From positions 1-22,128 of the IMG/VR virus record IMGVR_UViG_3300028175_000030: a stretch of 22,128 nt of DNA. One strand, 5' to 3'. Below the pieces are notes generated by a model that was not told where the DNA came from, searched no databases, and saw nothing but the letters and a program-made list of their open reading frames with translations. Every line of letters starts with the position of its first letter. The stretch's first letter is position 1. Shown piece after piece: positions 2,508-17,523 of this stretch. Source of the DNA: a virus. A program made the translations under genes and the position numbers.

Positions 2508-5273
2508 TTATCCTACATACTCTATAAATTCTCTTGTTATTACATTTGCGAATGTTCTATACTTAATAATATATACCGAATCACCTGTTGGTGATCTTGG
2601 AACCGTTATTGAGTTATTTCCTAAATCAACCCACCATGGCAGATTGATATTAACCACATTATTAGGCAGCAATGAATCAGGGAACATATTAGTAACGGTG
2701 ACCGTGTCCAGATTGTGATAATACTCAATTCTTATCCAAAATTCAAACTCTTGCTTATTACCAAACCCTAATTTATCATTTCTGAATGGCCCTTGATCTA
2801 TCCATTGCTGTTCAGTCACATCAGCCAATACTACTTGAAAATCACCAGTAACATTATTATCATCATACTCCATCGCATAGTAGGCTGGTGTGTGTTCATT
2901 ATCAATGAGAAGGTTATAAAACAGTTTATCTCCAGCCGTAGCCCATCCAACTATGCCCCCTTGTTGTGCAATTATTGGTTTGGTGAATGTGGTTCTGCCT
3001 GTTTGGAATGTGGCATTATAATTATCCCAGAACCCAGGATCGCAATTGAATATGTCATATACATGTGGTTGATTGCCAGCAAATTCATCATTCGCAACTA
3101 CTTTGTGTTCTAATCGTACATTATTCCTACCTCCCCATCCCCAATCGTGTACATTATCCTCATTTGATGCATTAGATTGCATTTTTAGTGCAAGATATGG
3201 GTTCATGAACCCATTGGTATTCAAACCCCAAGTAGCATCGTGATCCCTGTATGCGGAAAACACAGTCTCTTCCGAGGATGGATTGGTGTTCGGTCTATCT
3301 GCTAATCTTATATTCAAATATGGGTCGCCATTTTGAATAGTTGTTGATGCCGCCACACCATCAATGGTAAATGTGTCGGTACTACCTCCGCCGACTTCGA
3401 TTTGGTCGCCAGCATCTATTTGTAATATACTAGTTGATGATATGGCTTCACCAATAACATGAATGCCATATTGATCTGATAATGCCCCAGAATCGGTAAC
3501 CCTATATGTTGATCCAGTTGTTAAATTAGAATGTATCGTTGATAATGAACCCAATAAATTAACTGGTTTAGATTGTCCTGTTGTTCCTGATTCTTGTAAA
3601 ATACCATCTGGAGTAACATCATTGATATTTGATATTGTGGTAGTACTAGTTTCCACAAATCTTCTAAGGGCTGTAACATTATCTGCATCAGAGTATGCCA
3701 TTAATATCTGGTCAGTATTATCTGGGATATAACAGAACTGTCTGCCGAAGTTAGGTGCCCAATAACCAAATGAACTAGAAGTGCCTGCGGCAAGTGTGTT
3801 GGTTTGCCTGTCTATTGTAATATTGGTTGCATGTAAGACCCCATTACCATCTTTGCCTACGAAAAAACCTTTGGTAGAATCAGTTGGGTGGAATTCAAAA
3901 AGGCTGAACTGCCTTAAATCTTCCACAACCAGATATGCATGTACGACCTGAACAACATCATTTATAATACTAAAATATATTAATGTTGAGTGAGAATTTT
4001 TAACCACTGGGATTACATAATGGTCTGGATTATGTGGGTCTGGAACAATTGAATATATATCCGTTCGTGAGAAACTCAATAGTTGAGTTATTGATCCTTG
4101 ATCTGCTGTTATTGACCAATCAGTATCATTCTGAATTAGTTTCTGGCATTGGACACTACCGTTGACTTTGTCTAGATAAACCAACCAAGGTGTGCCATTA
4201 CTTGTAATAACAGGACTTATTGAATGTTCTCCGTGTAGTATATTAGGGTTTATACCACTCATTCTAAGTTCTGTTGGTGTGCCAATATCAATAGTGGTTG
4301 ATTGGTCATTAAAACTACCATAACCAATATAAACATTAGTGCCTAACGAACTATCACTATGCCACGTTGCCACATATCGTAGGGTAATTGGGTTAATATA
4401 CGAGTATACTTTCCCATTTGAAGCCGCATTATTATCTAATGCTTGAATACCTGTTTGGTCACTTGTCCAATTATTGTCAAAATAAGGTACTTTCATCACA
4501 CAAGCACCTGGTAGTTGCGGTCTTGAAGCACCCCATGGTGATATCTGCCCTATAAAATACACATAACTATTTGTGCCAATGTGTGTCGCTTTTACACTTA
4601 TCAAACCTTCATCAGGGTTGTTGTAATATAACCCTGTTTTGCCCCATGTAGTACCATCTGGATTCATCCCCCACCATACCACACCTGACATAGTAATTGC
4701 GCTGAATACATTGTCAAAAGCAGTAGGTACATTATTGTTAACCCACCACACATCAGCCCCAGTATAATCAGTAGGTGGAACACCACCTACATTACCTATT
4801 GCGCCAGGGTTTAGGGATTCTGTTATTGTTTGGTTGCCTACTTTCCCTACTGTTCCATCACCACTAATATAAACCACATCACCTGCATTCATATCATAAT
4901 CTAATGTGAGATTTGCTTGTAAATTGCCACCACCTGAACCACCACCTGAGTCATCAGTTCCATTAACCCAATTAGCACCATTATATTTTAATACTTGATT
5001 GGTTGATGGAGTTGATATACTTACATCAGTTAAATCATTGATTTCTGATGCACCACCGCCTCCTGCTGGGGTTGTTGCTATCCATGTTGATGTTGCATTA
5101 TCCCATGTTAATGATTGGCCGTCAGTAGGGGTTACATTCACATCTGATAGATTAGCCAAGTTCTCGGCTGTTATGTCTTCTAACTTATCTGTATTCAGAT
5201 TGGTAAAGTTATTATCTAACTCTTCATGGGTTAATGGTTCTCCTTTTGCTGCCCTTGTTGTGATTGTCGTCAT
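2508..5273 (-). CDS. Large tail-fibre protein (cassette 2)
   Basis: The protein is 921 residues long. Residues 1-30 (TTRAAKGEPLTHEELDNNF) are a very common N-terminal anchor of phage fibres. Residues 41-70 and 78-108 hold two related modules of the type 'LSDV...P..GQ.L.WD.ATSTW' and 'NDLTDV.IS.PSTNQVLKY.GANWVNGTDD', followed by a Gly/Ser-rich hinge. The middle (about 170-500) is a long aromatic beta-rich region that could be a propeller-like or fibre-head domain. A later stretch has 'VNLLGSLSTIHSNLTTGSTYRV', also seen in other phage fibres. The C-terminus is aromatic and may bind receptor or sugar. The start is supported by AGGA before ATG; the upstream gene's stop abuts it. The DNA for residues 73-110 is nearly identical to part of the fibre gene at 11678-12877. 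Confidence 0.9.
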   Translation of the reverse strand: MTTITTRAAKGEPLTHEELDNNFTNLNTDKLEDITAENLANLSDVNVTPTDGQSLTWDNATSTWIATTPAGGGGASEINDLTDVSISTPSTNQVLKYNGANWVNGTDDSGGGSGGGNLQANLTLDYDMNAGDVVYISGDGTVGKVGNQTITESLNPGAIGNVGGVPPTDYTGADVWWVNNNVPTAFDNVFSAITMSGVVWWGMNPDGTTWGKTGLYYNNPDEGLISVKATHIGTNSYVYFIGQISPWGASRPQLPGACVMKVPYFDNNWTSDQTGIQALDNNAASNGKVYSYINPITLRYVATWHSDSSLGTNVYIGYGSFNDQSTTIDIGTPTELRMSGINPNILHGEHSISPVITSNGTPWLVYLDKVNGSVQCQKLIQNDTDWSITADQGSITQLLSFSRTDIYSIVPDPHNPDHYVIPVVKNSHSTLIYFSIINDVVQVVHAYLVVEDLRQFSLFEFHPTDSTKGFFVGKDGNGVLHATNITIDRQTNTLAAGTSSSFGYWAPNFGRQFCYIPDNTDQILMAYSDADNVTALRRFVETSTTTISNINDVTPDGILQESGTTGQSKPVNLLGSLSTIHSNLTTGSTYRVTDSGALSDQYGIHVIGEAISSTSILQIDAGDQIEVGGGSTDTFTIDGVAASTTIQNGDPYLNIRLADRPNTNPSSEETVFSAYRDHDATWGLNTNGFMNPYLALKMQSNASNEDNVHDWGWGGRNNVRLEHKVVANDEFAGNQPHVYDIFNCDPGFWDNYNATFQTGRTTFTKPIIAQQGGIVGWATAGDKLFYNLLIDNEHTPAYYAMEYDDNNVTGDFQVVLADVTEQQWIDQGPFRNDKLGFGNKQEFEFWIRIEYYHNLDTVTVTNMFPDSLLPNNVVNINLPWWVDLGNNSITVPRSPTGDSVYIIKYRTFANVITREFIEYVG
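4945..5057. repeat. 113-bp direct repeat, copy 1 (fibre module)
   Basis: This stretch matches 12198-12310 at 107 of 113 positions by hand alignment, in the same orientation, 7253 bp away. It encodes the 'SEINDLTDV.ISTPSTNQVLKY' module of the fibre. Confidence 0.9.
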
Positions 5274-5516
5274 TTATTTGTCCTGTTTTTGTTGGAGTAA
5301 TTGGTATATCTGATCTAATTGTTCCGTGATTCGTTTGAATTGGTCGGTATGATCTTGTTTCAAGACATAATTCACTGGTAAGTCTACTTGGCACGAAGTT
5401 ATTCTTGTTTCTAATGATTTCATATCATCTACTATCCTCTTCAAGAAGAAACCGAATGGTAAAAAAACTACGGTGATTATGATTTGCCAAATAAGTGATA
5501 TATCTATTGATTCCAT
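5274..5516 (-). CDS. Small membrane protein with one TM segment and a coiled coil
   Basis: The 80-residue protein has a hydrophobic N-terminal segment (about residues 8-26, including WQIIITVVFLPFGFFL), then a basic/acidic stretch (KRIVDD) and a predicted coiled-coil or amphipathic tail from about 50 to 80 (YVLKQDHTDQFKRI, then QIYQLLQQKQ). Small phage proteins with this plan (N-terminal anchor, a 'NYV.K.D' segment, C-terminal helix) are common next to tail or lysis genes. Some are annotated as holin-like or spanin-like, but function is usually unproven. It is the first gene after the 940-bp repeat-rich region and directly precedes the large fibre. No Shine-Dalgarno sequence is visible. A TATAAAT box ends about seven bases before the ATG, so a leaderless transcript is possible. 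Confidence 0.75.
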   Translation of the reverse strand: MESIDISLIWQIIITVVFLPFGFFLKRIVDDMKSLETRITSCQVDLPVNYVLKQDHTDQFKRITEQLDQIYQLLQQKQDK

Positions 5517-5605
5517 TGTATTTATTTATACCAAACACAACTTTATTGTAATATGGGGTTTTGTTTTACTTATGTATTTAGGTAAGGGGTTGTTATAGAT
5601 AAAAG

Positions 5606-5638
5606 AAACCCCCACAATCCGAAAGATGATAGGGGTTT
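5606..5638. terminator. AAACCCC/GGGGTTT stem-loop, terminator-like on both strands
   Basis: AAACCCC at 5606-5612 is the reverse complement of GGGGTTT at 5632-5638, with a 19-base loop. On the plus strand the stem ends in TTTT, and on the minus strand it is followed by CTTTTAT, so it could end transcription weakly in either direction. Further GGGGTTTT and AAACCCCC blocks at 5555-5562 and 5727-5734 could pair with the same arms instead. Confidence 0.4.
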
Positions 5639-5815
5639 TAAAGGATTATATTTAAATGCCAGCGATGCTGATATTTAATATGAATAGGATGAGCGCAAAA
5701 GGAATTCAATATGGCTATAATGAACTAAACCCCCATCCTGATTGTATTTATACAAGTCGATTGGTTACTTGAAAAAAGTTTATTGTTTTGTTCCTTTTCT
5801 GTGATCTTTCGCACG

Positions 5816-5844
5816 TTGATTCCTTTTTGTTTGATTCCTTTTTG
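5816..5844. repeat. 15-bp tandem repeat, two copies
   Basis: TTGATTCCTTTTTG occurs at 5816-5829 and 5831-5844. Its core GATTCCTTTTT resembles the inverse complement of the AAAAAAGGATT core of the repeats at 6251-6409, so the two groups may be inverted relatives. Confidence 0.6.
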
Positions 5845-5885
5845 CTTGCGCTGTTTATTACTCCGAATTTGAATTCCATATCAGG

Positions 5886-5933
5886 AACACCCTTTTTTTT
5901 TTTAAATAAACCACCGCACTACCTGTGGGTGTT
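5886..5933. repeat. 7-bp inverted repeat enclosing a T11 tract
   Basis: AACACCC (5886-5892) and GGGTGTT (5927-5933) are perfect inverted copies. The 34-base loop begins with eleven T residues and includes a small CCAC/GTGG hairpin. It could be structural or a weak terminator. Confidence 0.35.
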
Positions 5934-5978
5934 ACTCCCCCTTCCTATTTCTGTAGGTAAAGTAGTATTATTATTTAA

Positions 5979-6002
5979 TATATATATATATATATATATA
6001 TA
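5979..6002. repeat. (TA)12 dinucleotide tract
   Basis: Twelve TA units in a row form a 24-bp stretch, followed by further AT-rich sequence up to about 6060. Such DNA melts easily and would suit a duplex-unwinding element beside the iteron-like repeats; that role is inferred. Confidence 0.8.
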
Positions 6003-6070
6003 ACAGTATGTTATATGGAATTATATGTAATCGGTTTAATGTTTATATATGTTTATTACCCCATATACCT

Positions 6071-6093
6071 CCAATATCCCGATAGGATATAGG
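6071..6093. repeat. Imperfect 9-bp inverted repeat
   Basis: CCAATATCC (6071-6079) and GGATATAGG (6085-6093) are inverted copies with one mismatch around a five-base centre (CGATA). The inner six base pairs are perfect. It could be a protein-binding dyad or an RNA hairpin in the candidate origin. Confidence 0.5.
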
Positions 6094-6142
6094 TTTTGGT
6101 TACTTAATTAGGTCTTTGCCTGCAATGTTTTTTTGGTTTTTG

Positions 6143-6420
6143 TAACTACAAAGTAGTAGTTTTCTACCTAACTACAAAGTATTACTTCTCCTAAACCTAA
6201 CTACAAAGGAGTGGTTTCTACTCCCTAACTACAAAGGAGTGCTTTCTCATAAAACCATATAAAAAAGGATTTCTAACTACAAAGGAGTGCTTTCTCATAA
6301 AACCATATAAAAAAGGATTGCTTTTCCGAAAACCGTATAAAAAAGGATTGCTTTTCCGAAAACCATATAAAAAAGGATTGCTTTTCCGAAAACCATATAA
6401 AAAAGGATTCCTAACTACAA
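6143..6420. repeat. Interspersed iteron-like repeats, family A (six copies)
   Basis: The core TAACTACAAAG starts at 6143, 6169, 6198, 6226, 6274 and 6412. Four copies continue as GAG(T/G)G and the first two as TAGTA or TATTA. The first four are spaced 26, 29 and 28 bp. The next gap is 48 bp because a family-B repeat is inserted: a 47-bp A+B unit at 6225-6271 is repeated at 6273-6319. Several copies are followed by a short complement of their 3' end (for example GGAGT, seven bases, ACTCC at 6208-6224), so each may form a small hairpin. Confidence 0.85.
6251..6409. repeat. Family B repeats, 30-bp tandem array with 3.7 units
   Basis: The core CCATATAAAAAAGGATT, preceded by AA, occurs in copies spanning 6251-6271, 6299-6319, 6329-6349 (with CCGTATAA), 6359-6379 and 6389-6409. 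The last four are exactly 30 bp apart and are joined by GCTTTTCCG. On the minus strand each unit reads GGAAAAGCAATCCTTTTTTA, a short hairpin (AAAAG/CTTTT) running into a T tract. A 10-codon plus-strand reading (LLFRKPYKKG repeated) results only from the 30-bp period. Confidence 0.9.
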
Positions 6421-6438
6421 AGGAGGGGTTTCCCTCCT
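6421..6438 (-). terminator. Terminator after the helicase gene
   Basis: AGGAGGG (6421-6427) and CCCTCCT (6432-6438) form a perfect 7-bp GC-rich stem with a four-base loop. On the minus strand the hairpin lies about 17 bases after the helicase stop and is followed by only two or three T residues. The T-rich family-B repeats just downstream may strengthen it. Confidence 0.65.
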
Positions 6439-6454
6439 CCTTCGTTGTGTGTGA

Positions 6455-8158
6455 TTACCTACTTTTTGTCTTCAGAAGCAATGATTGTAGTTTCCCACTA
6501 TCAATATTTGAATCTGCTATATCTGTAAAGTTTTCTCTTTTCAGGGTATTCGATGGATCGTTAGAATATGCTTCTGTGGTGTAATCATTCCAATTAACTA
6601 TTTTGGTAATAGGTGCTGAGGAGGACAAATTATCACCAAATGCATATCCAGCAACTCGTTTTCGTTCGTAGATAGTAACCTGTCCATTTACAAAAGTGGT
6701 ACTAGTTGTCTGTAGTGAATAATGTATACCATTAATATTGAGATACGCCTCGTACCGTTTTTTTAGGCTAGATATTTTAAAACCGGCATTTTCGGTATAT
6801 CCTTTAATAAGAGGTAATAATAATTTAGTTGGCAGAACCCCGTGCTTCATTGCAATCTTAGTAATAAAGTCGAATGCTTCGGTTGTGTTATCTTTTTGTA
6901 GATCATATCTATGATGGTAATCTTCACCGTGTAATGGTGGTAATGATTGCATTTTATCTACATTGTATTGTTTGATAATACTCCCCAGAAATTTAGCAAT
7001 GGCATCCCTGTTATATAATATATTTTTAATATAGGCATCCACGAACGCATCCACATCATCATTATCTGATAATTCTTTCTTGAAGAATTTAGACATAGCA
7101 TCAACGAGTGTTACATTGGTAATAATAATACTCCATCTTCTATCTGACCCCCTTTTACCTCCACCCTCTAATTTAATCATTCCAGGCAGATGATTATTAA
7201 AGAATAAATAAACAAGATTATTATCAACAACACAGGCATCTATCCCTTTTGATTCGTGTCTTCTTGACTTACTTCCTATAATTGCTTTTAAGTCATTGGT
7301 ACTAATTTGTTCAGGGTGTGCTTCATCAATAATACCGTATAAGCCGTATGACAGTAAAGCATTGAACTTATCCATATCGTGGCGGGTCGCACCAACCACG
7401 GAACTCTCCCCATACATGATTTTAAGTATCCCCTCAAGTACACCTTTACCATTTCCCCCTGGCAGACCAGTAATTTCAATACTAGGGGTACTTGTACAGC
7501 GTTCTGGATAGAGGTAGGTATAAGCCAACCACTTCTTCAAGTATTCAATATTCTCTTCCTTACCGCCACCCAGTGAGTGCATAAGTGCATCAAAGCCTTT
7601 ATCGTATGATTGGTCGGTATAATTTGGTTGTATGAAGTGTTTTTTGAGTTTAGTAAAGACATTATAGAATAAATCGGAGTAATCATCCTCAAAGACCGAC
7701 ATAACTTTCTTCTTATGATGTCTTTTTTGCTTAAACATCCATTGTTTTAATAGATTCACTCTCAACGCACTAAAATCAACATTTGTCTCCAATCCAAGAG
7801 TATCTAGCATTGCTTGTCCTGAATAGGTCTCAACTTCAATATTAGGTCTGTCTGATATTCCTGTATTGATTACAGAAATGTATTTTTGTTCCATGGTTAG
7901 GTAAGCATAGGCATTTGTCTCTATTACATCCATTACGGCAATCTCATTCTCTGCTAGCACGTCTACCTCTACCTTTGATTTTTTAGAGTTTAATGTCTGT
8001 ATCCTTTTTTCTATTAGTTCTTGATGCTTTTTTAAATCTTGTAATACATCATCATCATCATTACTCTTTAATGCTTGCAAGACTTGTTCTAATGCGCCAT
8101 TTGCATCACTTAGTGATAGTTTATTGATGCTTGTTTTAGTTAGTTTATGTATATTCAT
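6455..8158 (-). CDS. SF3 (D5-like) replicative helicase
   Basis: The 567-residue protein carries a superfamily 3 helicase core. Walker A is GLPGGNGKG at 231-239 (Lys238). Walker B is YGIIDEAH at 274-281 (Asp278-Glu279). Motif C is VYLFFNNHLP at 316-325 with the sensor Asn, and the basic pair Arg340-Arg341 is in the arginine-finger position. The pattern matches phage and plasmid D5-like primase-helicase proteins, which unwind the origin and fork. Residues 1-150 are a charged, partly helical N-terminal region without a primase active site; the primase is the separate upstream gene. The C-terminal 150 residues resemble the D5-type DNA-binding tail. The ATG overlaps the primase stop as ATGA, with AAAGGA upstream, so the two are translationally coupled. 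A terminator follows. Confidence 0.93.
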   Translation of the reverse strand: MNIHKLTKTSINKLSLSDANGALEQVLQALKSNDDDDVLQDLKKHQELIEKRIQTLNSKKSKVEVDVLAENEIAVMDVIETNAYAYLTMEQKYISVINTGISDRPNIEVETYSGQAMLDTLGLETNVDFSALRVNLLKQWMFKQKRHHKKKVMSVFEDDYSDLFYNVFTKLKKHFIQPNYTDQSYDKGFDALMHSLGGGKEENIEYLKKWLAYTYLYPERCTSTPSIEITGLPGGNGKGVLEGILKIMYGESSVVGATRHDMDKFNALLSYGLYGIIDEAHPEQISTNDLKAIIGSKSRRHESKGIDACVVDNNLVYLFFNNHLPGMIKLEGGGKRGSDRRWSIIITNVTLVDAMSKFFKKELSDNDDVDAFVDAYIKNILYNRDAIAKFLGSIIKQYNVDKMQSLPPLHGEDYHHRYDLQKDNTTEAFDFITKIAMKHGVLPTKLLLPLIKGYTENAGFKISSLKKRYEAYLNINGIHYSLQTTSTTFVNGQVTIYERKRVAGYAFGDNLSSSAPITKIVNWNDYTTEAYSNDPSNTLKRENFTDIADSNIDSGKLQSLLLKTKSR

Positions 8159-9063
8159 TTTAGTTCCTTTTGTCGTTTATTTGATTGTTCTAAGACATAA
8201 TCCTGTGCCTCATACCAATTGATGTTGTGTGCCTTGTAAATACCATTCCAGTGTGGTGTTTTCGCATTACTCCAAGACGTAAATAATGCTTTGTACTCGT
8301 TTTTGTCTTGTTCAGGATAATAGGACTTCATTATATTCAATCCCTCTATCCCTAAAAACTCAATAGCCCTCCAAGTAGTATTACGCCATTCCATATAGGA
8401 TAATTCACCTAATTGTCCTAGCACATAATTAATCTCATCTACTTTCGTTGGCAATAACATTCCATCCGTAGGAGTATATATGATGGGTTGGGAGGTAGGT
8501 GTAACTATCTCCTCCGTCTCCGCATATTCCAGAATGACAGCATCCAATTCAATGAGTGGCAATATCTTATTATGATACTCATAGTCCTTGTTATCAGTAT
8601 TATTACCAAACATAACTCTTGTTGGATTAGCCGTAACCTTATCTGCTTTAAATAACCAATTCAATGAGTTACGAACCAACCTTACATAATCAGCATCATC
8701 TAATATATCATCTAGTACGAAGATAAGTCTAAATTTATTATGTTCATCGGAATGATTTTGTGTAGTATAGTACCCAGCCCCATATTGTTTGTATAGAGGG
8801 GTATTGATAGCATCTGCCAGAGTCATTGAATCATCAACATCGAGTAGAATAAGGTTTGTTTTAAGGAAGTCTTCTTCTCTTACTCTGCCTGTATTTGGGT
8901 TTATTTGTGCATTGATAGCGAACCCATCCTTTGTAACTACCTCAATAAATTCCTCAATAGATGATTCTATATTCACCCATTGGTTGTAATTAGTGCGATA
9001 TAAGTCAGTCTGACTATCTACCTTGTTGATGTAGTGAGGGTTTACTGCATAGAATAAAAGCAT
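8155..9063 (-). CDS. Archaeo-eukaryotic-type primase (AEP) with PriCT-like tail
   Basis: I place the start at 9063, giving 302 residues. GGAGG precedes it, and the ATG overlaps the preceding stop as TAATG; an in-frame ATG at 9174 would lie deep in the upstream gene. The three AEP motifs are visible: LILLDVDD (71-78, metal-binding Asp75/Asp77), TTQNHSDEHNKFRLIF (100-115, the His motif) and DKVTANPTRVMFG (141-153, third acidic/Arg motif). The C-terminal region (about 205-280, with EWRNTTWRAIEFLGIEGL and later YKALFTSW) resembles a PriCT-2-type helical domain. AEP proteins make primers and sometimes extend DNA. With the SF3 helicase just downstream, the pair forms the split equivalent of fused primase-helicases such as P4 alpha. 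Confidence 0.87.
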   Translation of the reverse strand: MLLFYAVNPHYINKVDSQTDLYRTNYNQWVNIESSIEEFIEVVTKDGFAINAQINPNTGRVREEDFLKTNLILLDVDDSMTLADAINTPLYKQYGAGYYTTQNHSDEHNKFRLIFVLDDILDDADYVRLVRNSLNWLFKADKVTANPTRVMFGNNTDNKDYEYHNKILPLIELDAVILEYAETEEIVTPTSQPIIYTPTDGMLLPTKVDEINYVLGQLGELSYMEWRNTTWRAIEFLGIEGLNIMKSYYPEQDKNEYKALFTSWSNAKTPHWNGIYKAHNINWYEAQDYVLEQSNKRQKELK

Positions 9064-10001
9064 TATATTCCCTCCGTTTCTCGTAATATTTCTGCTAACC
9101 AATCTGCAGATTGAGGGTGATTTCCAAGTTCCGCTTGGTATTTTGCCAGTTCTTCTGGGTGGTCCCGTCCCCATTTGAGGAATATCATTGCTTGTTCCAT
9201 TGGCGGTAACTCTTTTTGAATTGGACTTAGTAGTGCTTGTTCCCTTTTGAGTTTAAATATTGCTTGTGCTTTATCCCTTTTGAGTTTAATCATTGATGCC
9301 CCCATTTGCGGTAACTCTTTTGTGAGGGCTTCTAATTCCTCTTCCATTTGTTTTACCCAATATTGTGTATGAGGGTCTTCACTAACGGCATTATCCATAA
9401 TCTTCTGGGACAATCGGTTAAACTTCTTTAACTTCTTTTCTTCGATAACACTTCTTCTCGCATCACGGGATACATATAACGAGTCCATTACTGCTTTTCG
9501 TTTGGCAGCATTAACATCATCATCTTGTAAGTTCTTATATCCTGCACGAAGTTCATCTTGCCACCGCATTGCTTCTTTGAGTTGATCTTCTGGGGATGCC
9601 CCTGTTTTCTCTAATTGATGGATACGGGCATGATGTGCTTTTTGTGCATCTTGATTTAATCCACATTGCTTAACAGCCCACACACTATCACCTTTCTTCA
9701 TATTCTGTAATGTAACACCATCTAGGACTAATTTAAGAATATGTTGATCTTCCAGATTACTAGCCCCTTCCATCCCATACGACTTGATTGTGAACATGTT
9801 CCAAGCAACATCAGCAGCATCTAATTGTCTGATAAAGTGATATACCAAGCGATGATTACCAACTCTGGCTTCTCGTTGGTGTTCTGATACTCGTATTTCA
9901 GGACGGCTAGTTCTCCCTACATAGAATGGATACCACTCTCCCTCGATATTACATCTAAGTTCATAAATTACACCAGGTTTAAACTCGTTTGCATTAGCCA
10001 T
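9063..10001 (-). CDS. GIY-YIG domain nuclease with long helical tail
   Basis: Residues 11-100 of 312 fit a GIY-YIG nuclease: VIYEL (11-15, GIY position), FYVGR (26-30, YIG position), Arg37 and His41 in IRVSEHQREA, the catalytic Glu84 in NLEDQ, and Asn100 in LQNMK. GIY-YIG enzymes cut DNA with one metal-binding Glu and occur as homing endonucleases, repair nucleases and phage accessory nucleases. Residues 105-312 are highly charged and helical. They contain a partial internal repeat (KELPQMGASMIKLKRD near 238 and KELPPMEQAMIFLKWGRD near 268), with no HNH, zinc or classic NUMOD motif that I can see. The gene lies between a 46-aa gene and the primase, overlapping both, so it is an operon member and not an isolated insert. 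Its target is unknown. Confidence 0.85.
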   Translation of the reverse strand: MANANEFKPGVIYELRCNIEGEWYPFYVGRTSRPEIRVSEHQREARVGNHRLVYHFIRQLDAADVAWNMFTIKSYGMEGASNLEDQHILKLVLDGVTLQNMKKGDSVWAVKQCGLNQDAQKAHHARIHQLEKTGASPEDQLKEAMRWQDELRAGYKNLQDDDVNAAKRKAVMDSLYVSRDARRSVIEEKKLKKFNRLSQKIMDNAVSEDPHTQYWVKQMEEELEALTKELPQMGASMIKLKRDKAQAIFKLKREQALLSPIQKELPPMEQAMIFLKWGRDHPEELAKYQAELGNHPQSADWLAEILRETEGI

Positions 10002-10134
10002 TAGCCTTCTCCTTTACTCTTACCGCTTCTGCCCGTTCCATATACAAATAACCTAATTGCACATCCCCGATCTTAAACATAAGATCAGCCGCATCGACCA
10101 AATCATTTACATTCTCGCTTACATCTTCATTCAT
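9994..10134 (-). CDS. Small acidic hypothetical protein, first gene of the replication operon
   Basis: This 46-residue reading frame starts MNEDVSENVNDLVDAADLMF and ends with a basic segment, RAEAVRVKEKANG. The start has a strong ribosome site (AAAAGGA, seven bases from ATG). The stop TAA falls eight bases inside the start of the GIY-YIG gene, as in tightly coupled phage genes. It follows the divergent intergenic region, so it is the first translated gene of the primase-helicase operon. The size and charge pattern (acidic front, basic end) do not identify a family. A small regulator or inhibitor is possible but unproven. Confidence 0.7.
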   Translation of the reverse strand: MNEDVSENVNDLVDAADLMFKIGDVQLGYLYMERAEAVRVKEKANG

Positions 10135-10300
10135 AATAATATCCTTTTAATATAATGCACTGTGTCATCACAATGTATTTATATAATATCACAAAATCCC
10201 CTAAATAGCAAGATAAAAGTATATATAATTGAATTGGCATAAGAGAGATGGGTAACTTCCTCTTTTTAAAGTGCTATTTCCCATCATTATAAGTATTGGA
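10135..10300. promoter_or_regulatory. Divergent promoter region between the replication operon and plus-strand gene
   Basis: The 166 bases between the 46-aa gene and the divergent gene must hold the start signals for both. ATCACAA occurs at 10167-10173 and 10188-10194, exactly 21 bp apart, so both copies face the same side of the helix and could form an operator. A TATAAT on the plus strand at 10224-10229 is a possible -10 box for the plus gene, without a good -35. AT-rich TATATAA stretches on the minus strand could be -10 elements of the operon. GATGGG (10247-10252) and CCCATC (10280-10285) are inverted and could fold near the plus gene's start. Confidence 0.45.
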
Positions 10301-10843
10301 ATGGATCATAAAATATATACAGATTGGTTAAACAGGCATTACGAAACCACTAAATGTGCAGATGCAAGACCACACAGAGAACAAACAAAAGCGGTATTAA
10401 GCAATCCTGATTGTGGATTAGTAATAGTAAAAGAGAAGCCAAGGAAAAGGTATTGCAAGAATTGTGAAGAGATTGTGGATTTTAATCCAGTAATTCAGAT
10501 ACAAAAAACAAAAAAGGGTTGGTCACAGAAATGCAGTAGCCCGTGTTTAAAGCACTTGAATAACAGGACAGGTGAATGGAAAAAGAAATATAGTGTCGCT
10601 TATATACCTGTATCTGAACGTGCCATTGCTGCCACCACCCTATTACCGGGTCAATATATTGATCCAACAGGTAGAATTAAATCCCTTAAACTCCCAGTTG
10701 AAGCAATTAAAGACATTATGAAGAAGGAAGTACCTCAAGTAGAATATGCTATGATGTATGATACATCACAGGGGTTTATATCTATGTTACAGAATGGCAA
10801 ATTACACGCAGGTTACAACTTTTTAGACGATCCCCCTCCATAG
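10301..10843 (+). CDS. Plus-strand protein with four-cysteine (zinc-ribbon-like) motif
   Basis: This is the only convincing plus-strand gene here, with 180 residues from the ATG at 10301. An in-frame GTG at 10271 would add ten hydrophobic residues, and neither start has a clear Shine-Dalgarno sequence. From the ATG, cysteines at 52, 55, 78 and 82 (YCKNC and, 22 residues later, CSSPC) form a C-x2-C...C-x3-C pattern typical of zinc ribbons. The region is basic (KEKPRKRYCKN, QKTKKGWSQK), fitting nucleic-acid binding. The C-terminal half (GQYIDPTGRIKSLKLPVEAIKDIMKK) is unfamiliar. It is divergent from the replication operon and convergent with the gene at 10887-11180. A regulator of the divergent operon is an attractive guess; a structural or nuclease role is not excluded. 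Confidence 0.7.
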   Translation: MDHKIYTDWLNRHYETTKCADARPHREQTKAVLSNPDCGLVIVKEKPRKRYCKNCEEIVDFNPVIQIQKTKKGWSQKCSSPCLKHLNNRTGEWKKKYSVAYIPVSERAIAATTLLPGQYIDPTGRIKSLKLPVEAIKDIMKKEVPQVEYAMMYDTSQGFISMLQNGKLHAGYNFLDDPPP

Positions 10844-10870
10844 TATACCTTATACCATATATATGGAGGG
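10834..10870. terminator. Stem-loop between convergent genes
   Basis: CCCTCCATA (10834-10842) and TATGGAGGG (10862-10870) are perfect 9-bp inverted copies with a 19-base loop; CCATATATATGG (10855-10866) is itself a palindrome. The left arm overlaps the end of the plus-strand gene. There is no T tract on either side, so this is a plausible but atypical bidirectional terminator. Confidence 0.45.
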
Positions 10871-10886
10871 TTGGTCGTAGTACGGC

Positions 10887-11180
10887 TTAGGTTCGACCTG
10901 GTAGGGATGAAAAAGAGGGTTTCCGTAGTAGATCCCGTTCATTATTAAACACACGAGTTCGTTCTATATCACTTTGGGTGTTTAGTACTTGTAATATTTT
11001 ATAATCGACATCACCCATATCAATTGCACTTAGAATATCATCAATCAGTACCTCTTTAGATGTTGCTGTTAGTTCTAATTTTATTGGGGGTTCGTTATTA
11101 CTCCGATCACTGAGGAAAGCAATGAAATGCTTCACATGATTAGTCGGTTTTAATTTAGCCACTGCGTTTATTAAGTTCAT
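10887..11180 (-). CDS. Hypothetical protein with its own leader
   Basis: I take the start at 11180 (97 residues) because AAAAGGA lies seven bases upstream; an in-frame ATG at 11219 would add 13 residues across a hairpin and has no ribosome site. The protein begins MNLINAVAKLKP and has mixed alpha/beta character (HFIAFLSDRSN, KLELTATSKEVLIDDILSAI, DYKILQVLNTQSDIERTRVF) with a basic C-terminus. No known motif, membrane segment or Cys pair is visible. It is preceded by a TATAAT box and a hairpin, so it seems to be expressed separately from the fibre genes and may belong to the early block. It ends facing the plus-strand gene. Confidence 0.65.
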   Translation of the reverse strand: MNLINAVAKLKPTNHVKHFIAFLSDRSNNEPPIKLELTATSKEVLIDDILSAIDMGDVDYKILQVLNTQSDIERTRVFNNERDLLRKPSFSSLPGRT

Positions 11181-11196
11181 AATATAATCCTTTTGA

Positions 11197-11218
11197 TGAT
11201 ACCCATAATTGGATATCA
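11197..11218 (-). promoter_or_regulatory. Hairpin or operator upstream of the 97-aa gene
   Basis: On the minus strand TGATATCC (11218-11211) pairs with GGGTATCA (11204-11197), an 8-bp stem with one G-T wobble and a six-base loop. It lies between the TATAAT box and the ribosome site AAAAGGA. It could be a repressor-binding dyad or a leader structure that modulates translation. Confidence 0.45.
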
Positions 11219-11223
11219 CCCTT

Positions 11224-11229
11224 ATTATA
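11224..11229 (-). promoter_or_regulatory. Candidate -10 box (TATAAT, minus strand)
   Basis: TATAAT is read on the minus strand just after the stop of the preceding fibre-associated gene and 43 bases before the ATG at 11180. No -35 close to TTGACA lies at the usual distance, so this may be a phage-specific or activated promoter. Confidence 0.4.
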
Positions 11230-11244
11230 CACTATTTTTGCAGT

Positions 11245-11667
11245 TTATGTGGAACTAATTAATGAACCGAGTGATATACGATGCCAATCTAATCCATCAC
11301 TAAGTCCCAAACAGGCATTACCCCCGTCTCCATTTGAACAATATGCCAATGTCCCTGCGGGTTCAGTAAGGGATTCTAATTGCGCTGTTGATTTAGCAGT
11401 AAGTCCCAATGCATACTCTACGGTGGTTATTCCAGACCCCGGTGATAAGGTAATATTTGTGGTTCCGGCGGATGTGAGGGAATTAGGGATTTCTCCGGCT
11501 GGTATTTTACCACCAGCACCTAATGATGCTATCCCATCATTAGCAGACCTAGATGCTATAATCGCATTTAATGCTACTACGGCATTATATATTTCGGGTC
11601 TTGCTAACAGGGGGCTATCTGCGTCGTTATCTAAGTTGTTTGTTGTTTGTGTGTTTGGCCAAGTCAT
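11245..11667 (-). CDS. Short tail-fibre protein with MTWP...NLD N-terminus (copy 1)
   Basis: The 140-residue protein starts MTWPNTQTTNNLDNDADSPL and continues LARPEIYNAVVALNAI. It is clearly related at the N-terminus to the protein at 1749-2300. The middle has 'SLGAGGKIPAGEIPNSL', a low-complexity segment seen in phage fibres. The C-terminal half (TEPAGTLAYCSNGDGGNACLGLSDGLDWHRISLG) resembles fibre C-terminal domains that end in a 'W.R' motif after an 'AYC.NGDGG..CL' core. A strong ribosome site (AAGGAG) precedes the ATG. It follows the 399-aa fibre directly, so the pair (long fibre, then 'MTWP' protein) makes fibre cassette 1. Confidence 0.85.
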   Translation of the reverse strand: MTWPNTQTTNNLDNDADSPLLARPEIYNAVVALNAIIASRSANDGIASLGAGGKIPAGEIPNSLTSAGTTNITLSPGSGITTVEYALGLTAKSTAQLESLTEPAGTLAYCSNGDGGNACLGLSDGLDWHRISLGSLISST

Positions 11668-11677
11668 GGTTTTCTCC

Positions 11678-12877
11678 TTAATTTATTAGTAATCTATATC
11701 CGTTCAACGATATGGTTTGATTCATAGTGGTATGTGCAGTAAAGTGTATATACGCTGTTTGTGTCCAATCAACTTGTTGATATATCATGCCACTTGTGTC
11801 GTACTGTGAGTCAAGTTCAGTCGTTTGCTTATCATAGATGGTTGTATAATCATTGTTGTTATTTAGTATTCTGATATCAGTGCTATACCCCACCCCTTGC
11901 CATGCATTACTAAAGGTTACTGTATACGCACTGAACTGATTCTTCAATTCAGGGAATAGGTTATTTGATAAGTACGCACTAAAATACCCAGTCCCAGATG
12001 CAGTAAGATTTGATGGTATCCCACTCACAAACCCACCATGTATTAAGAATTGGTATTCAAATTCAAATATATTATTTGCTGTTAGTGTATTCGGTGGTAT
12101 AGTTATTGTTTTTAGTGTGTAAGATAAGGGTTCGGTAGTTGAGTAAGTTCCCCAATCCTCTTCCCACAGAGTCATCCCAGATCCACCACCACCACCGCCT
12201 GAGTCATCGGTTCCATTAACCCAATTAGTACCATCATATTTTAATACTTGATTAGTTGATGGAGTTGATATATTTACATCAGTTAACTCATTGATTTCTG
12301 ATGCACCACCTGTACCACCTGTACCTGAGTCATCGGTTCCATTAATCCAATTAGTACCATCATATTTTAATACTTGATTAGTTGATGGAGTTGATATATT
12401 TACATTGGATAAGTCGTTGACTGATATATTATTATTTTCCCAATGCGTACCGTTGTATACTAATAATTCACCTGGTGTTTCATTTGTAAGTAAGACATCA
12501 TCGTTTTCATTTATACTGTTTATTGTGTAGGAGGTTGATACCGTCTCGATTCCTTCCATTCCACTCTGTAATTGGACTGTAACTTTAGTACTAAACCACC
12601 TGGTTTTAAACACAGGGGTAGTAGTTTCGGTGTAGGTATCATTATCAGTGCTTGATAAGTAGGAGGTTGTTATTATTGTATTTGGTGATGTGTTTACCGT
12701 TACTACCTTGGTAGATGGGGTTATAAATTTCACCGATCCGAGATCAACGACACTTGAAATATATTCTATAGTAGAACCTGGTTGGAATATACCATTCCAA
12801 TTATACCATGTGTTTGAATAATCCCATTGCGAGGGTAAAGTAGTCCAACTTTCATTCACTCCAATATATTGTGTCAT
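11678..12877 (-). CDS. Tail-fibre protein with duplicated QVLKY module (cassette 1)
   Basis: The protein has 399 residues. Residues 1-120 are a beta-rich N-terminal domain, presumably the attachment end. Residues 154-187 and 196-229 are two almost identical modules ('NDLSNVNISTPSTNQVLKYD' and 'NELTDVNISTPSTNQVLKYD', each followed by GTNW.NGTDDSG), 42 residues apart. A half-module at 126-150 (ETPGELLVYNGTHWENN) may be a third, diverged copy. A poly-Gly hinge (227-234) leads to a C-terminal head of about 165 residues. The ATG overlaps the tail-tip stop as ATGA, so translation is coupled. The same module is found in the 921-aa fibre at 2508-5273. Confidence 0.87.
   Translation of the reverse strand: MTQYIGVNESWTTLPSQWDYSNTWYNWNGIFQPGSTIEYISSVVDLGSVKFITPSTKVVTVNTSPNTIITTSYLSSTDNDTYTETTTPVFKTRWFSTKVTVQLQSGMEGIETVSTSYTINSINENDDVLLTNETPGELLVYNGTHWENNNISVNDLSNVNISTPSTNQVLKYDGTNWINGTDDSGTGGTGGASEINELTDVNISTPSTNQVLKYDGTNWVNGTDDSGGGGGGSGMTLWEEDWGTYSTTEPLSYTLKTITIPPNTLTANNIFEFEYQFLIHGGFVSGIPSNLTASGTGYFSAYLSNNLFPELKNQFSAYTVTFSNAWQGVGYSTDIRILNNNNDYTTIYDKQTTELDSQYDTSGMIYQQVDWTQTAYIHFTAHTTMNQTISLNGYRLLIN
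12198..12310. repeat. 113-bp direct repeat, copy 2a (fibre module)
   Basis: Same orientation as 4945-5057, 107 of 113 positions identical by hand alignment. It also pairs in tandem with the copy at 12324-12405. Confidence 0.9.
12324..12405. repeat. 82-bp tandem partial copy 2b of the fibre module
   Basis: The 82 bases differ from the first 82 of 12198-12310 at a single position, and the two copies are 126 bp (42 codons) apart. This points to a recent in-frame duplication. Confidence 0.9.
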
Positions 12878-15800
12878 GTCTTATAAGTTCCATAGTCTGT
12901 GAATTCGGCTGGCGTGATTGTAATGCGATTGCTTGTTTCCATCCCTATACTACCGTAGTAAAAAACCACGTACCAAAATTCATATTCGTATCGTTGTCCG
13001 AAGTTATCAATAACCACATACCCATCTATTGTGGCTTGTTTTTGTTGTGCAGAGGTCAAGTATGCATGTTCGTTAATTGAACCGTCACTCCGTTTATAAT
13101 ATATATGTATCTCGGCCGCACTATCGTTATATGGGTAAGCACCGAAGTTAAATGTCATCTTGGTTCTTGGTTGTCCGTAATAGGTATGTTCTGATTTTTC
13201 TATATAGATATTTGTCAATATTGGTGCTGCTGATGAGACTGTATATACAGGTTCATCAAAAATATTTGATATATTCACTGGTGGGTTTAATAGATCATCT
13301 CTTGACACCCATATTTGATTACTGCCGGGGCTATATACGCCATTATTGGAAAGGAAGTGTAATCTGAATAAAGCACCACTGTTAGTGCTATCTGGCCACC
13401 AGTCGTATTTATCTATAACGCCTGTGGTGTTCACTCCCATCTCTTCTCGTAACATAATCCAAGTACCTTCGCCATTGATTTGTGTGAATATTGCTGTATT
13501 ATATATTCGTAGGTCGTTATTCGTATCGAAATTACACCGTATCCGATTAGTTGTCGCGCCGCCAGTTGGTGATAATATATCAATATCATTTAGTACTGGT
13601 GCAATGAACTCGCTTGGTGCGGGTTTATAGTCCCTTGTCACGGTTTGTGGTGGGTTTAATAGATCAGATGAAGAGATCCATATTTGATTACTATCAGCAG
13701 ACGAATATGGGTCACCGGCATTCTCTAATATCTGAATATCCGTTATAAATCTAACAGTTAAGAAGCCCTCTATTGTTGGATGGATGCCATCCCCTGTGTA
13801 TGTGATCACTCCATTGGCTAGGTCAGTTGTGGTGTATCCAAACCGGCTGATAGTACCAGCACCATTGATATTCAAATATAAGTCTGCATCTATAATGCGG
13901 TCATCCGTGCCAACATTAAAATTACAAACAAGGGTATTGTTATGGGCATTAATGGCAGATGATACCACTATATTGGTTATAACTGGTGTTTCTAATGGTA
14001 TTTCAGGTACAATTATTATTTGGTTTTGCGCACTAGTTATAATCGTGGAATCGGTTTGGTCTGTTGTAAGTAGGAATATCTGATTACTATATTCAGAACT
14101 TAGAGATGATGAGTATCCAGCAGAGTTATCATATTTTAATTTTAATGTCCAATCCCAAGCATTCCACACTTCCCAAGGGACTACTGTATATCCAGTAGGA
14201 TTATAATCCAAAAATGCAATTCGTCCCCATGGGTCAGACCCGTGACGAGAACCATATAAGTCTATTTGCATAATTCTCCCGTCATCCACATAATCATAAT
14301 ATAAATGTGCTTCTAATGACCCACCATTATCATGAAACTCTATCTTTGAAAAATTAGGAGTTGCCAATGGTGTAGTATCAGGCACTTCACTAGAAACAGA
14401 GGTAATGGTTGCATAATTCACTAAATCATAATTTGAAATATATGCTTTGTTACTCAATGCTGATGTGATATTAGGGCTTTTGAATTTCAATGCATATAAT
14501 CCTTCATGTGATGTATTCACGTGCCATATGGAATACCATCCACTCGCAACTGCCATTTCATTGGTAGTATATGAATAACGCAATAAGGCCCCCTGTCCAT
14601 ATCTCGCATGATATACCCCGACCTCGTTGATTAGGGGTTCGCTATTTGCATCAAAATAAAAAGTTATTCTTCTGTAATTACCTGTGTTTTCTGTATCAGT
14701 AAGGGGGTCATCCTCTATCACTATTTTTGTGATGTTTGGTGCATCAATATGTGATATTTCTGGGGTATATATAGCAACAGGTGCTTCGGTTTCATACAGA
14801 TCAGCACCTATATCATCCAACACATTTTCCACATTCTCTCGGGGTGTCTGCGTTGGATTATCCGATGCTTCGGTTGCTAATAAATCATCAAATGCGTGGG
14901 GGTCATCATAATTGGCACTGATAGTTCCATCAATGTTTGTGATGATATCATAATACACTGGTGAGTTGGTTGTTTGAACCCCCCCTGTTATACGCCTGTC
15001 TGATGCATAAGTGATTGGATTACCAGCATATACTAAATCATTGTGTTCTTCCGCCATTATTGTGAATGTATAATTATTATTCATAATAATATTTCTTATT
15101 CTGAAATTCCCATCAATCCCTAACCCATCATAGTGTATATTAATAATATCATTTATTTCCACTGCCTGTAATGATGCATCTCCAGTTAATGATATAAGTT
15201 TGCTTCTATATCTGGACTTAGTTAATATTATTTCAGCATATTTTTTTGCCACTGCATCTTGTGTGTGTTGTTCTAAGGTGTGTTTAATTTCATTTACCCT
15301 ATTGTTGTCCTCGGCAAGGTATGTTGCTTCTAGGGTGGACCCGACATCTGGGTATGTGTACTCAATAGTTTCGTTTGTTTCCTGTGTGCTGGTACCGCCA
15401 CCAAAATATGTGACTACGACCCTATTATATTTGGTCTTATTTGATTCAGCCTCAATACTTACGGTACCTATTATTTGGTCTTCGTTTATGTACATCGACG
15501 GGACTGCTGTTGGTCCGTATCTACTAGTATCTGATCTATTATCTTCCAATGACACTTTGAACTTGCCCTGTGAGTACGGCATTGCCGATCTCATATTGAA
15601 TAAGAAAGTTTTCACATTTGCCATCAGAGTCCGATCAGTAAACACAACAGCATTACATGATTGTAATAAGTCAGATGAAGCAGTGCTACCATCATCTAAT
15701 TTGGTAATTCTAATCGCTTCATTTTTTGCTGCTTGGAAATCAATCTTGTCATTAGCCAACCCCTTGCCATAAATCGGATTTCGTAAATAATCAATTAGGC

Positions 15801-16554
15801 AATTCACTGGGGAGGCGGTATACAGGCGATTTTCATCGTCGTATAGTGTGGATCTTGTGGTAGAATCAGGGAAGGTGCTGACATCCGCTATTTTCATCCC
15901 TTGTAAATTACAAGTAATATTTGGAATACCACCTCTCCATGGGGTGTTGTCTTGGTCTTCAGTTGACTCGATTTTGTACCATCTTAACCTAAATCCAATA
16001 TATACCAGTCCACTTAATTTATGTTGTGTTGTCCATCCGGGTGTTTGTTTTAATAATGGAGAAGCGGATTGATTGGCAGTACCATGAAAGGTTTCAAAAT
16101 CCACATAACCATTAAATTTCCCTTCGGTTGATGAGTATCGTTCCCCATGTGTAGAAGTTCCTGACCATACTAATTCATCATCAATATAAACTGTTTTCAC
16201 TGCATTGATTTCACCTTCTGCTAATACCAATGCGATATACAGATACTCATTGCTTTCTCCATTGCTTGCCACATAGACCCTATTACCACCAATATATCTT
16301 TCGCCATATATAACTGGGATATTGTTATTTGTCCCTTGTTTATTGACTGTGATGCCTTGGTTCTGATTGATATCATATTCGGGGGTATCAAACCCCGGAT
16401 TGAACATCGTCTCGACTAACGATTCAATTGCCGCACCAGTGCCATATCCTATACCTGCCCCAATTACTGCACCAACTGGTCCACCAACCATGAAGCCAAT
16501 TACGGCACCGCCAACGGTTGTGATTCCTTTCCAAAGTGATGACCAAAAACCCAT
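12874..16554 (-). CDS. Tail-tip host-specificity protein (lambda J-like)
   Basis: This 1226-residue protein has a glycine-rich hydrophobic N-terminus (about 8-45: GITTVGGAVIGFMVGGPVGA and onward), often seen in the first residues of phage tail-tip proteins. A hub region follows with IPVIYGERYIGGNRVYVAS and EYLYIALVLAEGEINAVKTV (about 75-125). Then come VNCLIDYLRNPIYGKGL (about 250) and the region to about 530 with 'TRSRYRSKLISLTGDASLQAVEINDIINI', as in J-family proteins that form the tail tip and ejection pore. From about 600 to the end lie five domains of 120-133 residues, each closing with a 'SN.I.IS..DL' motif (near 704, 824, 955, 1079 and 1212), which look fibronectin-III-like. The gene starts one base after the upstream stop, and the first fibre overlaps its end. 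Receptor contact is inferred. Confidence 0.92.
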   Translation of the reverse strand: MGFWSSLWKGITTVGGAVIGFMVGGPVGAVIGAGIGYGTGAAIESLVETMFNPGFDTPEYDINQNQGITVNKQGTNNNIPVIYGERYIGGNRVYVASNGESNEYLYIALVLAEGEINAVKTVYIDDELVWSGTSTHGERYSSTEGKFNGYVDFETFHGTANQSASPLLKQTPGWTTQHKLSGLVYIGFRLRWYKIESTEDQDNTPWRGGIPNITCNLQGMKIADVSTFPDSTTRSTLYDDENRLYTASPVNCLIDYLRNPIYGKGLANDKIDFQAAKNEAIRITKLDDGSTASSDLLQSCNAVVFTDRTLMANVKTFLFNMRSAMPYSQGKFKVSLEDNRSDTSRYGPTAVPSMYINEDQIIGTVSIEAESNKTKYNRVVVTYFGGGTSTQETNETIEYTYPDVGSTLEATYLAEDNNRVNEIKHTLEQHTQDAVAKKYAEIILTKSRYRSKLISLTGDASLQAVEINDIINIHYDGLGIDGNFRIRNIIMNNNYTFTIMAEEHNDLVYAGNPITYASDRRITGGVQTTNSPVYYDIITNIDGTISANYDDPHAFDDLLATEASDNPTQTPRENVENVLDDIGADLYETEAPVAIYTPEISHIDAPNITKIVIEDDPLTDTENTGNYRRITFYFDANSEPLINEVGVYHARYGQGALLRYSYTTNEMAVASGWYSIWHVNTSHEGLYALKFKSPNITSALSNKAYISNYDLVNYATITSVSSEVPDTTPLATPNFSKIEFHDNGGSLEAHLYYDYVDDGRIMQIDLYGSRHGSDPWGRIAFLDYNPTGYTVVPWEVWNAWDWTLKLKYDNSAGYSSSLSSEYSNQIFLLTTDQTDSTIITSAQNQIIIVPEIPLETPVITNIVVSSAINAHNNTLVCNFNVGTDDRIIDADLYLNINGAGTISRFGYTTTDLANGVITYTGDGIHPTIEGFLTVRFITDIQILENAGDPYSSADSNQIWISSSDLLNPPQTVTRDYKPAPSEFIAPVLNDIDILSPTGGATTNRIRCNFDTNNDLRIYNTAIFTQINGEGTWIMLREEMGVNTTGVIDKYDWWPDSTNSGALFRLHFLSNNGVYSPGSNQIWVSRDDLLNPPVNISNIFDEPVYTVSSAAPILTNIYIEKSEHTYYGQPRTKMTFNFGAYPYNDSAAEIHIYYKRSDGSINEHAYLTSAQQKQATIDGYVVIDNFGQRYEYEFWYVVFYYGSIGMETSNRITITPAEFTDYGTYKT

Positions 16555-16555
16555 A

Positions 16556-16954
16556 TTATGTGATCCTGTATGTTTTAATTACTGGGGTTAAATTAGATAT
16601 ATTATATTCATTGCCTTCAAATAAACTAATTTGAACCTCTGTTAGGTTATTATTACTAGCCCATTCGAGTATATTATTAACTAGGGGTTGTGCTTCGTTG
16701 TTCCGGGTGTATATATTAGAAATAATGACTGTATTTGTGGTACTAAATCCATTATTCATAACCACCGCAAAAGCAACTGCTTGAACTTCCTCTTTCTTAA
16801 CTGAAACGACAACATAACTATTAGATAATATACACAATCTTCTTGTTGATTCCAAGCACTCATCATAATCAAAGTCCATCTCCAATTCCTCTGCTTGTTG
16901 TTGTAATAATCCAGTTATTTGTCTTATATGTTTACTTACTGCTTCTTGTATCAT
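16556..16954 (-). CDS. GNAT-acetyltransferase-like protein in the tail-tip operon
   Basis: I take the ATG at 16954 (132 residues): it overlaps the upstream stop as ATGA and has GGGGGA before it; an ATG four codons earlier is possible. Residues 1-40 are helical. Then VVVSVKKEEVQAVAFAVVMN, TVIISNIYTRNNEAQPLV and WASNNNLTEVQISLF follow the strand-strand-helix-strand order of a GNAT fold, including 'I.NIYT...' before a helix and a late 'A....L..V.I'. A perfect acetyl-CoA Q/R-x-x-G-x-G/A loop is not visible, so activity is doubtful. It sits where many siphophages have an NlpC/P60 hydrolase gene, between a minor tail protein and the J-like gene. The family call is tentative; tail assembly or a modified tail part are possible roles. 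Confidence 0.75.
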   Translation of the reverse strand: MIQEAVSKHIRQITGLLQQQAEELEMDFDYDECLESTRRLCILSNSYVVVSVKKEEVQAVAFAVVMNNGFSTTNTVIISNIYTRNNEAQPLVNNILEWASNNNLTEVQISLFEGNEYNISNLTPVIKTYRIT

Positions 16955-17523
16955 GGTTTCCCCCATTGTATATCGGCTATGGCAGAGGTGCTAAATTCCA
17001 TCCCCATATCTGATGGGTAGTGTCGTTGTTGGCTACCATTATTTGTCCTTCGACCAGCGACTCGTTCAAAATCGTAGAACTCATTTGATGTTGCTAATGT
17101 CACGATTGCTTCTTGGGGTGATTCTTTTACACTCGCCCCTGTTATCTGCCCATCATATATTAAGATTGGGGCTACTTCTGGTGCAAGGGTATCTTGATCT
17201 AATAATACTTTATATATTTTAATACTTCTATGCAAATAATTATCATTTAATACGATATTCCGATAAGTCGCTGTCGCCCCTTGTAAAGAAATACTCACAT
17301 TATTTATTTTAACTTGATCGGTCTCTCTCACCCCACTAAAGGCAATGAAATCCCCTTGTGCTATATAAGTTTGTGTGCCACTACTACTAGGGGTATCTGT
17401 CATTACATCATACCCTGCGGTGCTAAGATAGAGTGGGGTATCTAAATGAAGTTCCACTAGTTCTGTTGTAATAAAAGTATGGCTTGCTAATATAGCGGAT
17501 GTTGCTGAATCAAACCCCCTCAT
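16951..17523 (-). CDS. Minor tail (hub) protein, DUF2163-like
   Basis: The 190-residue protein begins with helix-rich MRGFDSATSAILASHTFITT, followed by a beta-rich stretch (TELVELHLDTPLYL, YIAQGDFIAFSGVRETDQVKI). It ends in 'FERVAGRRTNNGSQQRHYPS' and 'DMGMEFSTSAIADIQWGKP'. That ending, with 'S...D.GM......I.D..I.WG', is the signature of the DUF2163/hub-type minor tail proteins that join the distal tail to the tip. The ATG overlaps the preceding stop as ATGA (AGGAAAG is the ribosome site), and its stop overlaps the next gene. Protein-family knowledge supports a structural role in the tail tip. Confidence 0.75.
   Translation of the reverse strand: MRGFDSATSAILASHTFITTELVELHLDTPLYLSTAGYDVMTDTPSSSGTQTYIAQGDFIAFSGVRETDQVKINNVSISLQGATATYRNIVLNDNYLHRSIKIYKVLLDQDTLAPEVAPILIYDGQITGASVKESPQEAIVTLATSNEFYDFERVAGRRTNNGSQQRHYPSDMGMEFSTSAIADIQWGKP

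Follow-up and report, generated by a model that had tools for sequence, protein, structure and literature searches.

Satellite phage P4 has two separated cis regions with iterons, ori and crr. In PICI satellites the origin lies immediately 3' of rep and consists of an AT-rich region with a set of iterons on either side; rep and ori have been cloned together and tested as a replicon on a plasmid, and an alpha-cognate cis site is named in the same paper (PMC6092414). For the PLE satellite, the iteron was shown to be a repeat that lies in non-coding DNA (PMC7145576). GTAG REPs are extragenic palindromes of 20-40 bp that occur in high copy number downstream of genes (PMC3733652). The origins of uncultured marine phages are rarely located.

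We analysed one linear viral record from IMG/VR of 22,128 bp (hereafter the window). The window is a fragment of a tailed phage of about 30 kb that is related to Pelagibacter phages, the genome size being the sum of contig overlaps with no assembly. With the terminase of a near-identical contig (L005) as the query, the nearest cultured phages were DSL-LC06 and the Pelagibacter phages HTVC111P, 202P and 026P, at about 50% identity. Nearly all genes of the window lay on the minus strand, in the order tail genes (tape measure, distal tail, tip), a GIY-YIG-like gene, a primase-like gene, an SF3/DUF5906 helicase, the stretch at 5517-6454, an 80-aa gene and long fibre-like genes. Both genes that flank the stretch run in the same direction, the helicase ending at 6455 with its stop codon abutting the array region and the 80-aa gene starting at 5516. 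The features of the locus were as follows:

8155-9054, minus strand: probable AEP-type primase; matches PHROG DNA-primase families, best annotated E = 4e-11.
6455-8158, minus strand: SF3-type helicase (DUF5906); Pfam PF19263, E = 3.9e-10, above the gathering cutoff.
6138-6433, plus strand: mosaic repeat array; A core TAACTACAAAG six times, B core CCATATAAAAAAGG five times.
5966-6025, no strand: 60-bp stretch with the highest A+T content in the window (92%); contains (TA)12 at 5978-6002.
5858-5877, minus strand: GGAATTCAAATTCGGAGTAA, common to the copies at both loci described below.
5816-5848, minus strand: 15-bp repeat AAAAAGGAATC, twice; B-core-like, inverted, on the far side of the AT tract.
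5600-5745, minus strand: predicted structured RNA with a Rho-independent-type terminator at its end; preceded by TATAAATA (5745-5752).
5274-5516, minus strand: 80-aa gene (PHROG 462), downstream of the intergenic region; preceded by TATAAATA (5523-5530).

The mechanical ORF of the primase starts at 9174, in overlap with the GIY-YIG gene; we took a start further downstream. The helicase also showed a weak match to 'phage/plasmid primase, P4 family' (TIGR01613, E = 1.2e-4, below the cutoff). The 80-aa gene was the first of the fibre/terminase/portal block. Searches of the window for tRNA, tmRNA and Rfam families gave no matches at gathering cutoffs. On the plus strand, 10271-10843 encodes a Cys-rich 190-aa protein with an HTH-like C-terminus that is conserved at 46% in a relative (L092 4720-5289) and is a candidate DNA-binding regulator. 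Segments of about 120-130 bp were repeated between the 921-aa and 399-aa fibre-like genes (window 4927-5057 and 12180-12425). Relatives with the same late genes (L026 7804-9174, L027 215-1576) had, in place of the primase and helicase of the window, a protein of 453-456 aa that contains an HDGVY motif and matches no family, and in these relatives the replication module appears to have been swapped.

The A core was found as exact copies at 6143, 6169, 6198, 6226, 6274 and 6412; a search that allowed one mismatch gave no further copy in the window. The B core was found at 6255, 6303, 6333, 6363 and 6393, the copy at 6333 being CCGTATAAAAAAGG with one mismatch, and the spacing of the last four was exactly 30 bp. 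The repeats, coordinates and spacing given in the original prediction were confirmed. Over the whole window and at the mismatch levels used, 0.64 copies of TAACTACAAAG and 0.47 of CCATATAAAAAAGG were expected by chance; six copies of TAACTACAAAG were reached in 0/100 shuffles, and 500 shuffles of the region gave at most two copies of any 11-mer, compared with six observed. Tandem Repeats Finder reported a perfect 48-bp unit present twice (6225-6319), a 30-bp unit repeated 4.3 times and a 28-bp unit repeated 3.8 times. The two cores had been taken for two repeat families; both are real, but they are not independent, being the halves of one 48-bp unit that is partly deleted in the other units. 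The 30-bp B-only units lay on one side of the 48-bp A+B pair and the A-only units of 26-29 bp on the other. The unit spacings (48, 30, 26-29 and 19) were not multiples of the helical repeat.

Several A units carried hairpins (stem sum 27 versus 19.1 in shuffles, P = 2e-4). The minus strand from 6454 to 6210 was open for 79 codons in phase after the helicase stop and repeated NPFLYGFRKS. A coding reading of the array was rejected, because the gene that precedes the array in L005 and in a second contig, L006, stops in a different phase; the open frame was put down to chance and unit lengths divisible by 3.

The most AT-rich 100 bp of the window (87%) started at 5958, and this peak (5958-6057) lay about 80-110 bp from the array. 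The (TA)12 that had been predicted was present as (AT)12.5 at 5978-6002, and the 60 bp around it (5966-6025) are a candidate unwinding element. The strong repeats of the window were confined to one side of the AT tract, and the other side had only the two B-like inverted repeats, the AAAAAGGAATC pair, which is a weak candidate for a second repeat set. Compared with the PICI layout, the window has the place, the repeats and the AT-rich region, but only this weak candidate second set (5816-5848).

The stretch had been described as 940 bp free of genes. It indeed held no sizeable protein genes, but it held other features, among them the structured RNA predicted at 5600-5745. This RNA had a fold of -41 kcal/mol (z = -4.6), which none of 200 shuffles equalled. 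A similar predicted RNA was found in a related phage (G013; L035/L042) with z = -5.3, and both RNAs shared AGCCATATT...TCCTTTT and the terminator. The RNA of L042 lay at 968-1140, and L006 had a predicted RNA of this kind at 5247-5395. Double changes were seen in 4/38 pairs, covariation too thin for proof. The loop of the RNA was complementary to a ribosome-binding-site-like sequence (AAAAGGA...AUAUGG). The TATAAATA boxes were T4-late-promoter-like; all four copies in the window were on the minus (gene-sense) strand, including those at 5523-5530, 5745-5752 and 10176-10183, and three of the four were intergenic. The box was also present upstream of the scaffold gene in two other contigs (L009/L050). 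Across the window as a whole, TATAAATA showed no enrichment.

To place the array among other helicase neighbourhoods, we used a profile built from the window helicase together with three of its distant relatives, since no close homologue of the helicase was found in viral contigs or phage records. The profile fetched 80 viral loci (best identity 32%), and the helicase gene was recoverable in 72. The scan covered intergenic stretches of 120 bp or more and looked for at least four copies of a 9-mer on either strand. Iteron-like repeats were found directly 3' of the helicase gene in 6/19 cases versus 0/211 other gaps (P = 1.4e-7), in 4/9 versus 0/74 with one locus per helicase cluster (P = 7e-5), and in 4/6 versus 0/10 after dereplication at a length of at least 250 bp (P = 0.008), P values that are somewhat optimistic because two such arrays had already come to light before the scan was devised. 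Shuffled sequences were positive in 0/1900 cases. The comparator repeats (CCCTGCTACC, GCCCTAAGTTG, CCTTCACAA and CCCTAGACA) were unlike those of the window but stood at the same place. In these arrays the repeats tended to fall into two or more sets on either side of a gap with more A+T than the average of the locus, as reported for PICI origins. The comparison suggests a simple rule for short repeat arrays in the neighbourhood of SF3/DUF5906 phage helicases: irrespective of sequence, they occupy the gap immediately 3' of the helicase gene, as in PICI satellites.

The array is real and is probably a functional cis element. We favour, with some reserve, the reading that the array (6138-6433) and the AT-rich tract (5966-6025) form a phage theta-type replication origin. 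The argument for an origin is one of architecture: the array lies directly 3' of the DUF5906/SF3 helicase, with a primase-like gene before the helicase, the AT maximum of the window adjoins the array, and unrelated repeats recur at the same place in distant relatives of the helicase. Under this reading, a phage initiator, either the SF3 helicase or the primase that partners it (the genes for both lie just upstream), would recognise the A/B repeats as binding sites and melt the (TA)12 tract, after which the helicase-primase would be loaded; the identity of the binding protein and the start of melting at (TA)12 are what we infer from the layout. The original prediction of an iteron-type origin beside a primase-helicase was thus left as the best-supported reading after the helicase-neighbourhood test, although the repeats were also found away from the helicase and skew gave it no support. 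The cumulative skew that had been expected to mark the origin did not do so: GC and AT skew, over the whole window and at third positions (composite gene order), showed no switch at the site, where the genes on either side run the same way. If these repeats are origins, much of the PICI satellite arrangement is shared by ordinary tailed phages, and it could become possible to predict origins and initiator-iteron pairs across many contigs.

Scans of viral contigs found the repeats in two other contigs, L005 and L006. In both, the repeat cores followed a head-morphogenesis gene, away from any helicase, so adjacency to a helicase is not required. We call the position between the head-morphogenesis and scaffold genes int1 and the helicase-side stretch of the window int2. 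L005 (10,995 bp) was 98% identical to the window over the 921-aa gene, ran on through the terminase and portal genes, and ended inside an array that began at the stop codon of a head-morphogenesis-like gene. L006 (5,464 bp) carried a head-morphogenesis-like gene followed by a shorter array, a (TA)9 tract and a 61-aa ORF, so that the array/(TA)n layout of the window was seen again. The block after the 61-aa ORF was 98% identical to window 5824-5532, and L006, in which the block runs into an int2-type RNA region, may be a chimaeric join or a recombinant. The numbers of A and B copies varied (6A/5B, 4A/2B, 1-2A/1B), with cores nearly exact throughout.

Further contigs came from searches with portal and scaffold. 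In L048, L049 and L050, the post-array block of the window was found just upstream of scaffold, with (TA)12 where covered, GGAATTCAAATTCGGAGTAA and an end at CGCAAG as in the window; the block shared between int1 and int2 stops just past GGAATTCAAATTCGGAGTAA, at ...CGCAAG (5845), and the (TA) tract was conserved in the int1 copies and in L006. L050 was 99.9% identical to window 9068-17767 as a contig, and its block was 98.4% identical to window 6099-5845. L048 and L050 had common differences from the window copy (AACACTAAGCC against AACATTAAACC, and homopolymer length), so the int1 and int2 copies are likely paralogous. L005 and L049 come from the same source metagenome, so the end of L005 within the array probably joins the end of L049 within the block. 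The int1 and int2 copies are likely to occur in one genome; no single contig covered both arrays. Contig ends clustered in and around the array and block, as a repeat would give. L010 was 99.5% identical to window 5892-7 and extended into portal.

The array at int1 was absent in the near-identical L009, L011 and L047, all of which kept the scaffold leader, and the int1 copy is therefore dispensable. L011, 100% identical over 501 bp that overlap window 22128, showed head-morphogenesis, then a hairpin region without an array, then scaffold. In the array-less genomes, a 26-bp exact duplicate of the 3' end of the head-morphogenesis gene (L009 4433-4458/4619-4644, L011 3776-3801/3962-3987) flanked a hairpin segment of about 160 bp at int1, with the look of an inserted element. 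A reading of L005 and L006 as a deletion derivative (a genome lacking capsid and tail) was dropped, as L049 and L050 show the block followed by scaffold and capsid. The int1 copy would be either a spare cis element, comparable to ori and crr in P4, or a recombination duplicate. A fuller version, which we regard as doubtful, holds that two near-identical iteron origin cassettes, homogenised by recombination, stand at both module borders and serve both as origin or origins (an ori/crr-like pair) and as an exchange point between the head-tail and replication modules, with a dedicated structured RNA beside one copy.

The position of the cassette at module borders among mosaic genomes also bears on a selfish or neutral origin of the array, either as REP-like short palindromes with a GTAG tag or as a variable tandem repeat that serves mainly as a recombination linker between gene blocks. 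The minus strand reads CTTTGTAGTTAG, with hairpins in several A units, and in a Thalassolituus MAG a RAYT-like transposase gene is followed directly, in two places, by a similar tandem array of CTTTGTAGTTA. However, tandem CTTTGTAGTTA was found in only one MAG of roughly 760 related genomes, and no transposase was seen in the phage. As folded RNA, the whole array showed no excess of structure over shuffles on either strand (z about -1.2), the B units had no GTAG, and the GTAG tag in the window was confined to the array copies. GTAG REPs are high-copy palindromes of 20-40 bp (PMC3733652), a description that the array does not fit. We consider this explanation unlikely and the link of the array to RAYT/REP weak. 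The Thalassolituus arrays (L098 4800-6082, L100 602-1942) contain the same 11-mer as the phage A core.

The array could also be an operator or regulatory cassette before the late transcription units, bound by a DNA-binding phage protein such as the plus-strand Cys-rich 190-aa protein (10271-10843) and controlling the scaffold/tail unit and the 80-aa/fibre/terminase/portal unit. The cassette does precede both blocks, at int1 before scaffold and at int2 before the 80-aa gene, and promoter-like TATAAATA boxes lie downstream of it. We nevertheless judge a regulatory cassette quite unlikely, as the genomes with no array at int1 keep the scaffold leader, TATAAATA is not enriched window-wide, and a regulatory role gives no reason to expect that other SF3 helicase genes, too, have repeats on their 3' side, with sequences unrelated to these.

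In lambda, cosB lies near cosN. The array could, finally, be a cosB- or pac-like site at which the small terminase subunit recognises DNA for packaging, a reading that we judge unlikely here. The repeats of Serratia phage Smarc1 lie 3' of primase, 90-360 bp from the annotated cos overhang and at a distance broadly like that of lambda cosB from cosN, so that 3'-of-helicase arrays could be packaging sites in the chi-like family, and a cosB-like role deserves consideration across the whole class. Against it, the repeats, or the block next to them, occur at two distant loci in near-identical genomes; such duplication would be incompatible with a cutting site unless cosN were missing from one of the copies. 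The terS gene lies elsewhere (L005 6850-7236), and the window contig continues through the site.

The theta-type origin that we favour can be set against four described systems. The chi-like phages MA11, MA12, Smarc1 and UF_RH7 (Casjensviridae) have a distant homologue of the helicase (25%), and MA11/MA12 and Smarc1 have six CCCTAAGTTG-type repeats 3' of the helicase gene around an AT-richer gap. They differ from the window in repeat sequence and genome layout, and in Smarc1 a cos end lies beside the repeats. The CCCTAAGTTG repeats lie between the primase 3' end and the genome end (L199 1-534, Smarc1, with cos annotated; L120 6164-6838), and no origin was annotated in the stretches of chi-like phages examined. 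GTAG REP/RAYT systems are alike in having GTAG beside short hairpins that are extragenic and downstream of genes (PMC3733652), whereas the window units are in tandem and in the same orientation, half of them lack GTAG, their palindromicity is low and no RAYT was seen in the window phage. P4 has in common with the window an SF3 helicase of P4-family-like type (the weak TIGR01613 match) and two separated cis regions, ori and crr in P4 and probably int1 and int2 here. The window differs in that separate genes encode primase and helicase and in that its repeats bear no relation in sequence to those of P4. In the rep-ori replicons of PICI/SaPI elements such as EcCICFT073, primase/helicase-type initiator genes are likewise followed immediately 3' by short iterons and an AT-rich stretch (PMC6092414). 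Unlike these, the window belongs to a tailed phage with its own head and tail genes, its cassette is partly duplicated, and its iterons, composite units of 48/30 bp, are longer and stand almost exclusively on one flank of the AT tract. The locus would thus be an origin of known layout, set apart by its new repeat sequences and by the unusual duplication of part of the cassette.
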